A DNA stretch of 64,000 nt, taken from assembly GCF_003259695.1 (NCBI RefSeq), contig NZ_PZJH01000001.1, forward strand, positions 1,054,001-1,118,000, written 5' to 3'. A program made the translations under genes and the position numbers. Origin of the DNA: Macrococcus epidermidis. Its GTDB lineage: Bacteria > Bacillota > Bacilli > Staphylococcales > Staphylococcaceae. This document shows positions 58,982 through 62,799 of the stretch, in pieces. Below the pieces are notes generated by a model that saw only the letters and a program-made list of their open reading frames with translations, was not told the origin of the DNA and searched no databases. Within the stretch, counting starts at the first letter, position 1; each line of letters begins with the position of its first letter.

Positions 58982-60721
58982 TTATTTCACACCGGATTGC
59001 AATGCATACATTTTACCATAAACATCGCCTTTTTCGACTAATATATCATGTGTACCACGTTCGATGATTTCCCCTTTATCCAGAACAATAATTTCATCAG
59101 CATGTTTAATGGTAGATAATCGGTGTGCAATAATAAAAGTTGTTCGGCCTTCTTTTAACACATCCATTGCTTGCTGAATGACAGACTCTGTTTCTGAATC
59201 AATACTAGCAGTCGCTTCATCTAATATTAATATTTTAGGGTTGAACGCCAGTGCCCTTGCAAATGATATTAGCTGGCGTTGACCACTCGAAAGCGTTGAG
59301 CCACGTTCTACTACTTCAGTGTCGATTCCATTTTCTAGTGACTGTAACACTCTATATCCACCCACGCGTTCCAGTGCATCAATCGCCATCTCTCGAGTAA
59401 TTTTAGGATCATTTAAAGTGATGTTTGAAAGAATCGTTCCAGAATAAAGATACGGATCCTGCAATACAATACCCATAAATTGACGCATCGATTGTTTAGT
59501 AACAGACGTTGTATCAATACCATCAATTGTAATACTACCCGTTGTCGGATCATAAAATCTGAAGAGAAGATTCATAATTGAACTTTTACCTGAACCGGTA
59601 TGACCAACGAGACCAATCGTCTCACCAGGTAAAGCATCAATATTAATATTTCTTAATACAAGTTCGTCAGGTTTATATCCGAATGATACATCTTCAAATT
59701 TCACATGGCCAGTACAATGCGTCATGATATTATCTTCCTGCTCTTCTGCTGTTTCATCCATCATTTCAAACACACGATTGCTTGAAACACGTGCCTGCTC
59801 TAGAACACTTAGCTGATTAACCATATTGAACATTGGATTAAATAGACGAGTTAAATAATCAACTAATATATACATCATACCAGCAGTAAGTGTTGCTTCA
59901 TCACTTAAGAATGATTGTCCGAAGATGTAAATCATCACTAAAAAGACGAATGATCGAATCGTACCCATAAGGTTATGACTCGTAAAAGAATCAAGTTGAA
60001 TAATCTTGCTATAATTCTTTAGATATTCTTCATTCAACTGATTAAATTCCTGCTGAATCTTCTCTTCCTGATTAAATGCTTGAATGATCGTCATACCATT
60101 TATTGATTCATTTAACATGGCATTCATATCACTATTACGTTCACGAACGATATTATTATATTTATCGCTGATCTTACGGTAAATTAATAACCAGCCAAAT
60201 AATAATGGCACTACAATTAACGCAAGCAATCCTACTTTAAAGTTAAAATAAAATATTACTGCAATAATTCCGACGATATTTGTAATACCAGCAATATATG
60301 TTGGAAGCATCACTGTGAACAACTCTAATATTGTCTGTGTGTCATTTGTGATACGTGCTACAACTTTTCCAGCTGGTAAATTATCAAAAAACTTAATCGG
60401 AAGTTTCTGTATATGACTGAATAAATTTGTACGTAAGTGTTTGATAACATTTGAACCGGCTGTCTGGAAATAGATTGTTTGATAGTAACTTAATATCGCA
60501 TAGATAATTGCAATGATGAAATATACTGCTAACAATAAAAATATCGGCTGCATATTAATAATACCTTCTGTTGCCGTCTTGATATGGTGATCGATAATAT
60601 ACATCCCGATGACAGGACCAATGAGCTCCATAATGACAGCAAAGAATAATATGATAAAACCTATGAAAAATAAAGTTTTCTCTTTCTTGGCCTCTAAATA
60701 TAAACGTTTAGTAGTCGACAT
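58982..60721 (-). CDS. Heterodimeric ABC exporter subunit with the consensus catalytic site (BmrD/YheH-like)
   Basis: A 579-residue half-transporter: six membrane helices (about 1-310), then the ATPase with Walker A VGHTGSGKSSIMNLL (about 372-386), signature LSSGQRQLISFARAL, Walker B ILILDEATASIDSE (catalytic Glu) and H-loop IIAHRLS. It follows its partner by a single-base gap. Pairing of one Glu-type and one Asp-type subunit is the pattern of BmrCD multidrug exporters. Confidence 0.9.
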   Translation of the reverse strand: MSTTKRLYLEAKKEKTLFFIGFIILFFAVIMELIGPVIGMYIIDHHIKTATEGIINMQPIFLLLAVYFIIAIIYAILSYYQTIYFQTAGSNVIKHLRTNLFSHIQKLPIKFFDNLPAGKVVARITNDTQTILELFTVMLPTYIAGITNIVGIIAVIFYFNFKVGLLALIVVPLLFGWLLIYRKISDKYNNIVRERNSDMNAMLNESINGMTIIQAFNQEEKIQQEFNQLNEEYLKNYSKIIQLDSFTSHNLMGTIRSFVFLVMIYIFGQSFLSDEATLTAGMMYILVDYLTRLFNPMFNMVNQLSVLEQARVSSNRVFEMMDETAEEQEDNIMTHCTGHVKFEDVSFGYKPDELVLRNINIDALPGETIGLVGHTGSGKSSIMNLLFRFYDPTTGSITIDGIDTTSVTKQSMRQFMGIVLQDPYLYSGTILSNITLNDPKITREMAIDALERVGGYRVLQSLENGIDTEVVERGSTLSSGQRQLISFARALAFNPKILILDEATASIDSETESVIQQAMDVLKEGRTTFIIAHRLSTIKHADEIIVLDKGEIIERGTHDILVEKGDVYGKMYALQSGVK

Positions 60722-62458
60722 TTAAGAGACACCTCCCAACTGTTGACGATCGAATTGCGACTTGTACCAGCCATTATTCGCAATCAGTGCTTCATGAGTA
60801 CCACGCTCGATAATTTTTCCGCGATCTAATACCACAATTAAATCTGCGTGCTGTACAGCTGAAAGTCGATGCGTTGATATAATCGTCGTCTTTCCGCTTC
60901 TTGAAGCCTGAATATTTTCTATGATCGCTGTCTCCGTTTTTGCATCTACAGCACTTAATGAATCATCTAATATTAATATATCTGGATTTTTTATCATTGC
61001 ACGGGCTATAGAAATACGCTGTTTTTGTCCACCTGAAATAGCGATTCCTTTTTCTCCAACGAGCGTTTCTAACCCTTGAGGCAATCTTTCAATATCTTTT
61101 GTAAAGTTTGCAAGACGAATTGCTTCTGCAATTTCAGCGTCAGTCGCATCCTCCTTACCAAACTTAATATTTTCTTTTACTGTTCTTGAGAATAATATAT
61201 TTTCCTGAGAAACATAGCCTATCTTATTACGAACGTCATACTTGGATAAATCTTTCACGCTTAAATTACCAATAGAAATGTTCCCTGCTCCCATCGGATA
61301 TTCTTTTAAAATCTGCTTGATTAAAGTCGTCTTACCACTTCCCGTAGGACCAACAATACCTAATGTTTCGCCTACCTTTATCTCTATATCAATATCCTTT
61401 AAATTTTCTTCTTCACTTGATGGATACTGGAAAGTTACAGCATCAAAGGAAACGTGATGATCCTTTGGAATTGAAGCGTCAATCGGATCTTCCATGACAT
61501 CTTCAGTATTTAATGTATCCATTACACGGTCTAATGATGCATTACCACGTTGCATAATATTAAATAATAATCCAATTGCAAACATCGGCCACACAAGCAT
61601 ATTTAAATAAACATTGAAGGCAATTAAATCACCGACTGTAATTTCACCTTGATTAACAAGATAACTCCCATAACCGAGACCTATCATAAAACTTAACGAT
61701 GTAACAATTATCGTAATCGGTTTGAATAGAGCATCTAATTTTTCTACGTGAATAAATTTGTTAACCACATCAGTCGTCATATGTTTAAAATGAATATCTA
61801 AATGTTCTTCCTGTGCAAAAGCACGTGTTACCCTGACGCCTTCAATCGATTCCAATACACTGTCATTCATATCACCGAATGCATCCTGACTCACAGTGTA
61901 TCGTTCATGAATCATTTTCCCGAGACGTTGTTCAATATATGCTAAAAATGGTAAAGGAATAAGCGCTGCTAACGTTAATTTCCAAGAAATCGCAATAGCC
62001 ATCATCGCAATAATTGTTACCATATATGTTGTACTATCGATTAATGTCAAAATACCAAAACCAACTGTTTGACGAATGGCACTTAAATCATTTGTAGCCT
62101 TTGCCATAAGGTCACCAGTTCTATTCTTTTCGTAAAAACTCGGACTCATCGTTAAAAACTTTGCCATAATTTTCTTGCGCATAATACTTTCTAGCAATTG
62201 TGAACCATTAAACAAAAGATATCGCCATAAGTAATTGATTAAATAACTCAACACTAGCGTTACAGTAAATACGATTAATATCCAGTTAAAAGTATCTTGT
62301 GTTAACGTTTTTAAATTGACGTAATCAATCGTTTTTCCAATTAGCCAAGGCGGAATAATCTCTGTAACATTCGCACAAAGGAGTAAGATTACCGCAAAAA
62401 CATATCTCTTTTTTTCCTGCTTGAAAAACCATCCTAACTTAAATAAAACATCTAACAT
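60722..62458 (-). CDS. Heterodimeric ABC exporter subunit with a degenerate catalytic site (BmrC/YheI-like)
   Basis: A 578-residue half-transporter with six membrane helices and an ATPase domain: Walker A VGPTGSGKTTLIKQI (about 370-384), signature ISGGQKQRISIARAM, Walker B ILILDDSLSAVDAK where the catalytic Glu is replaced by Asp, and H-loop ISTHRLS. The start ATG has AAGGAG 8 bp upstream. It is first in the operon, as BmrC is, and its leader carries the attenuator described at 62480-62742. Confidence 0.9.
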   Translation of the reverse strand: MLDVLFKLGWFFKQEKKRYVFAVILLLCANVTEIIPPWLIGKTIDYVNLKTLTQDTFNWILIVFTVTLVLSYLINYLWRYLLFNGSQLLESIMRKKIMAKFLTMSPSFYEKNRTGDLMAKATNDLSAIRQTVGFGILTLIDSTTYMVTIIAMMAIAISWKLTLAALIPLPFLAYIEQRLGKMIHERYTVSQDAFGDMNDSVLESIEGVRVTRAFAQEEHLDIHFKHMTTDVVNKFIHVEKLDALFKPITIIVTSLSFMIGLGYGSYLVNQGEITVGDLIAFNVYLNMLVWPMFAIGLLFNIMQRGNASLDRVMDTLNTEDVMEDPIDASIPKDHHVSFDAVTFQYPSSEEENLKDIDIEIKVGETLGIVGPTGSGKTTLIKQILKEYPMGAGNISIGNLSVKDLSKYDVRNKIGYVSQENILFSRTVKENIKFGKEDATDAEIAEAIRLANFTKDIERLPQGLETLVGEKGIAISGGQKQRISIARAMIKNPDILILDDSLSAVDAKTETAIIENIQASRSGKTTIISTHRLSAVQHADLIVVLDRGKIIERGTHEALIANNGWYKSQFDRQQLGGVS

Positions 62459-62480
62459 GTGTCACACTCCTTGTTCACTC

Positions 62481-62518
62481 ATAAAAAAATACACATACTC
62501 AAATGATGAGCATGTGCA
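62481..62518 (-). terminator. Attenuator terminator T2 before the ABC exporter
   Basis: CACATGCTCA-TCATT-TGAGTATGTG (10-bp stem with one G-T) followed by TATTTTTTT, ending about 12 bp before the exporter ribosome binding site. Confidence 0.8.
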
Positions 62519-62528
62519 CATTTTTAGA

Positions 62529-62545
62529 GTGGGATTAACTCCCAC
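62529..62545 (-). other. Small hairpin between the two attenuator terminators
   Basis: GTGGGA-GTTAA-TCCCAC, perfect 6-bp stem with a 5-nt loop and no T tract. It lies between terminators T1 and T2 and could pause RNA polymerase. Confidence 0.55.
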
Positions 62546-62550
62546 AGACA

Positions 62551-62600
62551 ATCAAAAAAATACATAATCATTTCCATATTAATATCGTCGAAAAGATTAT
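62551..62600 (-). terminator. Attenuator terminator T1 overlapping the leader stop codon
   Basis: ATAATC-T-TTTC ... GAAA-T-GATTAT (6 plus 4 bp around a T-T mismatch) then GTATTTTTTTG. The upstream arm contains the TAA stop of the leader peptide, so a ribosome there would block folding. Confidence 0.6.
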
Positions 62601-62680
62601 AGCGTTATTTTTGATTCGTATGCAGGAGGAAAATATAAAATTGTTGATAAATAAACATACTGTCGTCTAACGTTGTTCAT
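62597..62680 (-). CDS. 27-residue leader peptide of the ABC exporter (bmrB-like)
   Basis: ATG at 62680 with GGAGG 8 bp upstream opens a 27-codon frame; the peptide reads MNNVRRQYVYLSTILYF, then PPAYESKITL. It contains a Phe-Pro-Pro, a known slow spot for ribosomes. It lies between a good promoter (62714-62742) and two terminators, in front of the exporter pair. Translation of its message probably senses ribosome stalling, as BmrB does in Bacillus; its sequence is too short to compare with BmrB. Confidence 0.7.
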   Translation of the reverse strand: MNNVRRQYVYLSTILYFPPAYESKITL

Positions 62681-62694
62681 TGTATTTTCCTCCT
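62624..62694 (-). repeat. 12-bp inverted repeat masking the leader ribosome binding site
   Basis: The ribosome binding stretch AGGAGGAAAATA (62683-62694, minus strand) is perfectly complementary to TATTTTCCTCCT (62624-62635) within leader codons 15-19, over a 47-nt loop. Confidence 0.85.
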
Positions 62695-62713
62695 TTCTTT
62701 ATTAGTTGTTTTA

Positions 62714-62742
62714 ATCATAAATTAATCTTCTGAAAATTTCAA
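62714..62742 (-). promoter_or_regulatory. Promoter of the leader peptide-ABC exporter operon
   Basis: TTGAAA (62737-62742), 17-bp spacer, TATGAT (62714-62719). Transcription would start about 25 nt before the leader peptide ATG. Confidence 0.75.
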
Positions 62743-62799
62743 TAGTTCATACAAATAAATTTCGCTTTACGAACAAAATTAACAATAAATTTACAAAAT

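Follow-up and report, generated by a model that had tools for sequence, protein, structure and literature searches.

The leader of the exporter operon analysed here is probably a ribosome-controlled transcription attenuator, laid out like that of the trp operon, in which the first pairing strand is the leader's own Shine-Dalgarno (SD) sequence. Sequence, folding, and comparison among relatives showed three alternative pairings (1:2, 2:3, and 3:4) followed by a terminator; 1:2 and 2:3 are mutually exclusive, as are 2:3 and 3:4, which is the arrangement expected of a bmrBCD-type attenuator. An initial annotation of the 64,000-nucleotide stretch of DNA analysed (the window) had proposed a bmrB-like leader attenuator ahead of a heterodimeric ABC exporter, and both proposals were supported. 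The 12-bp complementarity between the leader SD and an anti-SD within the leader ORF was absent from that account.

The exporter operon and its leader

The window belongs to a Macrococcoides genome, and its nearest named relative was M. goetzii, with 98% identity across the exporter. Among solved structures (PDB), the closest matches were B. subtilis YheI/BmrC for the first exporter protein (E = 8.7e-210) and YheH/BmrD for the second (E = 3.6e-168), making the pair orthologous to BmrC/BmrD. Walker B motifs ending in LDD and LDE represent the usual division between degenerate and canonical sites among heterodimeric exporters. Given the YheI/YheH best matches together with this LDD/LDE split, the leader sits on a true bmrCD operon. 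The features of the locus, all on the minus strand, are as follows.

58982-60721, minus: BmrD (YheH) ortholog; Walker B ends in LDE, canonical site
60722-62458, minus: BmrC (YheI) ortholog; Walker B ends in LDD, degenerate site
62467-62472, minus: exporter SD, AAGGAG, from sequence
62483-62519, minus: intrinsic terminator T2, 13-bp stem and U7, from the terminator scan; an equivalent in all related loci examined
62529-62545, minus: 3:4 hairpin, GUGGGAG-UUAA-UCCCAC, from folding; strand 3 mimics an SD
62538-62629, minus: 2:3 hairpin (putative antiterminator), CUCCUGCA:UGUGGGAG and a long internal stem, from folding; equivalents in L002-L008 and L016
62554-62602, minus: apical hairpin and U-run, first annotated as terminator T1 and reread as the interior of 2:3, from folding and relatives
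62597-62680, minus: leader ORF of 27 codons, peptide MNNVRRQYVYLSTILYFPPAYESKITL; equivalents in 46 ortholog loci
62624-62635, minus: strand 2, the anti-SD TATTTTCCTCCT within the leader ORF; a perfect 12-bp complement of strand 1
62683-62694, minus: strand 1, the leader SD AGGAGGAAAATA, from folding, strand-swap comparison, and duplex energy
62714-62742, minus: promoter TTGAAA-17-TATGAT, from the promoter scan; sequence kept across the genus

Much of the previously proposed anatomy held. The promoter matched the consensus at 10 of 12 positions and was the top-ranked site of a scan in which the number of promoter-like sites was not above chance. Between promoter and terminator lies a predicted short leader ORF (62680-62597) carrying the SD AAAGGAGG, in agreement with the 27-codon leader and strong ribosome binding site that had been described. 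The small hairpin (62545-62529) was recovered by folding. T2 (hairpin 62519-62489, then U7) was recovered as the only strong terminator-like site in this region of the scan, and the claimed exporter ribosome binding site was found as AAGGAG at 62472-62467. This exporter SD was mostly unpaired in the minimum free energy structure, with no erm-type hairpin over it. The whole 250-nt leader folded at -69.7 kcal/mol, against -44.0 kcal/mol for shuffles (z = -6.4). An inverted repeat, TTCGTAAAGCGAA, lies upstream of the promoter at 62761-62773 and is a possible operator; by eye, a TTCG-N5-CGAA form was seen at this position in most loci of Macrococcoides and Macrococcus, and the longer inverted-repeat pattern had no further full match in this genome.

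The leader SD (62694-62683) is fully complementary, over 12 bp, to UAUUUUCCUCCU (62635-62624) in the 3' part of the leader ORF. The predicted duplex energy was -17.3 kcal/mol, compared with a mean of -6.6 kcal/mol (standard deviation 2.6, strongest -12.4) at 62 comparison sites, which were the SD and start sites of ORFs of at least 80 amino acids within the window. Strand 3, an SD look-alike downstream of the leader, is able to pair with either strand 2 or strand 4. The segment from strand 2 to strand 3 folded as one 92-nt hairpin (-26.9 kcal/mol, z = -5.3), which we read as an antiterminator with the T1 segment as its apical part.

Conservation of the pairings within and beyond the order

Orthologs were collected from 47 genomes of the order with an exporter at E below 1e-190, and the leader was fully covered in 46 of these loci; L020, whose contig begins at the leader ATG, was left out. 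All 46 covered loci had a strong SD, an ORF of 20 to 27 codons, and an anti-SD near the ORF 3' end, and the leader therefore passed the test of conservation among relatives that the initial annotation had set for itself. The sequence of the 1:2 helix varied, being AGGAGGAAAAUA:UAUUUUCCUCCU in Macrococcoides, GGUAGUGA:UCACUACC in Mammaliicoccus, and AAGGAGG:CCUCCUU in Salinicoccaceae. Within Salinicoccaceae, loci of genus g6 (L024-L026, L028-L030, L111, L112, L114, and L117) are longer by about 170 nt in the interval from T2 to the exporter, where another short ORF may be present and a CCCTG..CAGGG hairpin covers the exporter SD.

To cancel the contribution of the shared SD core, cognate strands were compared with strands swapped among 23 divergent loci (20,000 permutations). 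Strand 1 paired with the leader 3' part at -14.5 kcal/mol when cognate and -10.9 kcal/mol when swapped (0/20,000 permutations), and the leader 3' part paired with the region up to T2, that is 2:3, at -19.95 versus -15.0 kcal/mol (0/20,000). The control, strand 1 against the downstream region, gave 653/20,000. Per-locus shuffles, combined over loci that are not fully independent, yielded p = 3e-24 for 1:2 and p = 6e-18 for 2:3.

The anti-SD core was always about 6 to 12 codons ahead of the leader stop, and its reading frame differed by lineage (frame 0 in L001, the locus of the window, frame 2 in L005 of the same genus, and frame 1 in most loci). With the core found in all three frames, it is the RNA that is conserved and not the peptide. 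Leader peptides were diverse and shared no codon run for one amino acid of the kind seen in trp-type leaders. These observations bear on the reading in which, as for ermC or tlrB, one specific drug is sensed through a nascent-chain arrest motif. Two or three consecutive Arg residues do occur close to the N-terminus of some leaders, resembling macrolide arrest motifs, and such stalling could operate alongside SD masking; however, the peptides differ in sequence between clades, even the frame in which strand 2 is read varies, and no arrest motif is common to them, and we consider peptide-specific stalling unlikely. The control point had earlier been placed near the leader end, whereas the conserved feature is SD masking at the ORF start.

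The SD:ORF pairing extended beyond the order. In 50 non-Staphylococcales loci of the class, with the leader picked by SD strength alone, cognate pairing was -13.0, against -10.2 for swapped strands (0/20,000). Most class-wide ortholog loci retained the design with diverged sequences, and some relatives in the class had no clear leader by the criteria used. By eye, the design was also seen, built from other sequences, in Bacillus sp. 165 (L041) and a Tissierellia bin (L066). Relatives at about 45 to 47% identity (Neobacillus, Cytobacillus, and others) mostly lacked such a leader; several of these have a YneF-like ORF next to them and seem to represent another exporter.

One class-wide locus, L168, belongs to a close relative of B. 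subtilis and encodes an exporter 93% identical to YheI. Here a strong SD, AAGGAGGGUUUGCU-AUG, drives a 23-codon ORF with the helix GGGUUUGC:GCAAACCC, and the frame of this ORF differs from the long frame corresponding to annotated BmrB. It is this 23-codon ATG ORF, and not the published 53-aa ORF, that matches the leader of the window. Only L168 and L170 keep the BmrB-type long frame open across the terminator; in L169, L171, and L173-L175 it closes earlier. Judging from these sequences, in the B. subtilis group the leader of bmrCD is probably the 23-codon ATG ORF rather than annotated BmrB (GTG, 53 aa), and the terminator-containing 53-aa frame looks like an annotation matter and not a defining feature. 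In the published leader knock-out (Reilman et al. 2014, PMC4191407), the GTG was altered and alternative upstream starts and ribosome binding sites were eliminated as well, so that the mutation would probably have destroyed both ORFs and does not decide between them.

Two further elements were observed in these families. A second upstream ORF, with a conserved C-terminus mostly of the form [L/M/I]E[G/S][G/D]-stop, lies between the terminator and bmrC in the last ~130 nt before the exporter (L130, L133, L136, L139-L143, L149-L153, L168-L175, and others); it was found in Bacillus-like and other families and is absent in Macrococcoides. Directly before strand 2, a motif near CARCTNAATAC occurs in L154, L156, L157, L158, L161, and L170, which span several families; it is read as QLNT in some leaders and in another frame in L170.

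Proposed control of termination

In the attenuator that we propose, the absence of a ribosome, or smooth translation, would allow 1:2 and 3:4 to form, and transcription would end at T2 and, in Salinicoccaceae, at the U-run-bearing 3:4 hairpin too; 2:3 would likewise be blocked while a ribosome travels across strand 2. A ribosome detained at the leader start, for instance by a lincomycin-type inhibitor, either initiating or within its first few codons, would cover strand 1 and free strand 2, upon which 2:3 would form and read-through into the exporter would be favoured. The released strand 4 might then weaken T2 by pairing with its loop and 3' arm, a step that we regard as tentative. What is sensed would be SD occupancy, not peptide sequence. 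In B. subtilis, bmrCD induction requires leader translation, lincomycin is the strongest inducer, and aminoglycosides fail to induce (PMC4191407); for vmlR, lincomycin and retapamulin arrest ribosomes during initiation, which relieves the anti-antiterminator (PMC9226507). The lincomycin data on bmrCD and vmlR fit a start-site-occupancy sensor, which by analogy may operate in Macrococcoides.

Ensemble calculations were run on the leader RNA up to T2. In the free RNA of L001, the predicted pairs numbered 11.8 for 1:2, 0.1 for 2:3, and 5.8 for 3:4; masking the SD changed these to 0, 3.8, and 2.4, and masking strand 2 to 0, 0, and 5.8, respectively. Most Staphylococcaceae relatives behaved like the window. 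In several Salinicoccaceae loci (L024, L025, and L111), SD masking left 3:4 intact at equilibrium, which counts against the model, and a kinetic choice must therefore be assumed; the 3:4 hairpin of this family, with its trailing U-run, is a terminator in its own right and overlaps 2:3. Also counting against the model, L124 formed no 1:2 in the free state and T2, which lies outside the 2:3 hairpin, is predicted to form in every state.

On how T2 is bypassed, the comparisons argue weakly for pairing by strand 4. Strand 4 against the T2 loop and 3' arm gave 61/20,000 swaps and a combined shuffle p of 9e-4; the step is kept tentative because the loci are non-independent and base composition was uncontrolled in the swap test. 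Swap tests of T2 antitermination via the leader ORF or strand 3 gave no signal. Downstream of T2, a stretch that includes the exporter SD gave 1/20,000 with the leader ORF and 27/20,000 with strand 4, again with base composition uncontrolled, and we make no claim from these values.

The prediction of T2 in all states would also suit a reading in which T2 is a fixed, leaky, and unregulated terminator and the SD:anti-SD helix merely limits repeat leader translation or stabilises a small RNA or protein; in tlrB, too, a hairpin represses further leader translation (PMC6851288). We judge this quite unlikely, since conservation and covariation extend to strand 3 and the 2:3 alternative, something superfluous for a fixed shut-off, and bmrCD is inducible in B. 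subtilis (PMC4191407).

The initial annotation had instead invoked tandem terminators, T1 and T2, giving a tight shut-off, with a ribosome stalled near the leader end opening T1. For T1, a hairpin followed by a U7 tract can indeed be drawn, with the leader stop codon in its first arm; however, the hairpin alone is weak (-6.3 kcal/mol), it was not called by the terminator scan, and inside the 92-nt 2:3 hairpin its U-run is paired to the leader segment AAUCAAAAA. Relatives keep the stem without the U-run, or lack the insert altogether. The U-run is interrupted in L003, where the corresponding stem is kept, and is broken or gone across L003-L005 with the hairpin retained; L004, L005, and L016 build the same kind of 2:3 hairpin from different sequence; L006-L008 have a short 2:3 version with the stop codon inside, and the T1 insert is missing in L006-L009. 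Neither the double shut-off nor the opening of T1 by a stalled ribosome found support, and tandem termination is quite improbable as an account of this leader.

Relation to known attenuators and significance

Ribosome-mediated transcription attenuation of a drug exporter is a known kind of control. In the E. coli trp attenuator, four overlapping strands (1:2, 2:3, and 3:4) are read by the leader ribosome. There, strand 1 is a run of regulatory codons and the signal a shortage of charged tRNA, whereas in the window strand 1 is the SD and the proposed signal is translation inhibition.

B. subtilis bmrBCD (PMC4191407) shares with the window an orthologous exporter, a short leader ORF, a terminator, an antiterminator, and an anti-antiterminator. 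Its published leader, a GTG ORF of 53 aa, contains the terminator, whereas the leader of the window has 27 aa and T2 lies outside it, and the published model, as far as the text consulted indicates, gives the leader SD no role as a pairing strand. In vmlR and Rli53 (lmo0919), ribosome arrest at a short upstream ORF likewise blocks an anti-antiterminator and lets an antiterminator form, but their upstream ORF has 3 codons, in contrast to 27 here (PMC9226507, PMC8079631). The vmlR ORF lies in a bulge of the anti-antiterminator with its SD single-stranded outside the helix, whereas the SD of the window is a helix strand (PMC9226507, PMC8079631). The tlrB (yxjB) leader resembles ours in that a downstream hairpin can repress renewed leader translation, and RNAP pausing there gives time for leader initiation (PMC6851288); it differs in that macrolides arrest translation at a conserved RYR motif at the end of the leader, and in an SD-sequestering hairpin that acts on the resistance gene. 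Rli59 (lmo1652) of Listeria shares an antibiotic-responsive terminator and a small ORF before an ABC transporter; it is inducible by several translation inhibitors, and its mechanism was reported as unresolved (PMC8079631).

No Rfam family matched at gathering score in the window or in 24 related loci; RF01488, used as an Rfam probe, is rli49. Judged against open-licence PMC papers, what appears to be new is that the leader's own SD serves as strand 1, that this use is spread through Bacilli, and that it is independent of reading frame. Whether the leaders form a Bacilli-wide class of attenuators that sense occupancy of their own SD, replacing the BmrB frame and maybe explaining Listeria Rli59, is in our estimate an evenly balanced question.

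If the proposed mechanism is true, it would explain why such pumps answer many ribosome inhibitors, the RNA reading a jam at the start site and not a peptide. It suggests that the wrong frame has been assigned to the textbook B. subtilis bmrCD leader and offers a candidate mechanism for Rli59 of Listeria (PMC8079631), and the paired strands should permit pattern-based discovery of further members.
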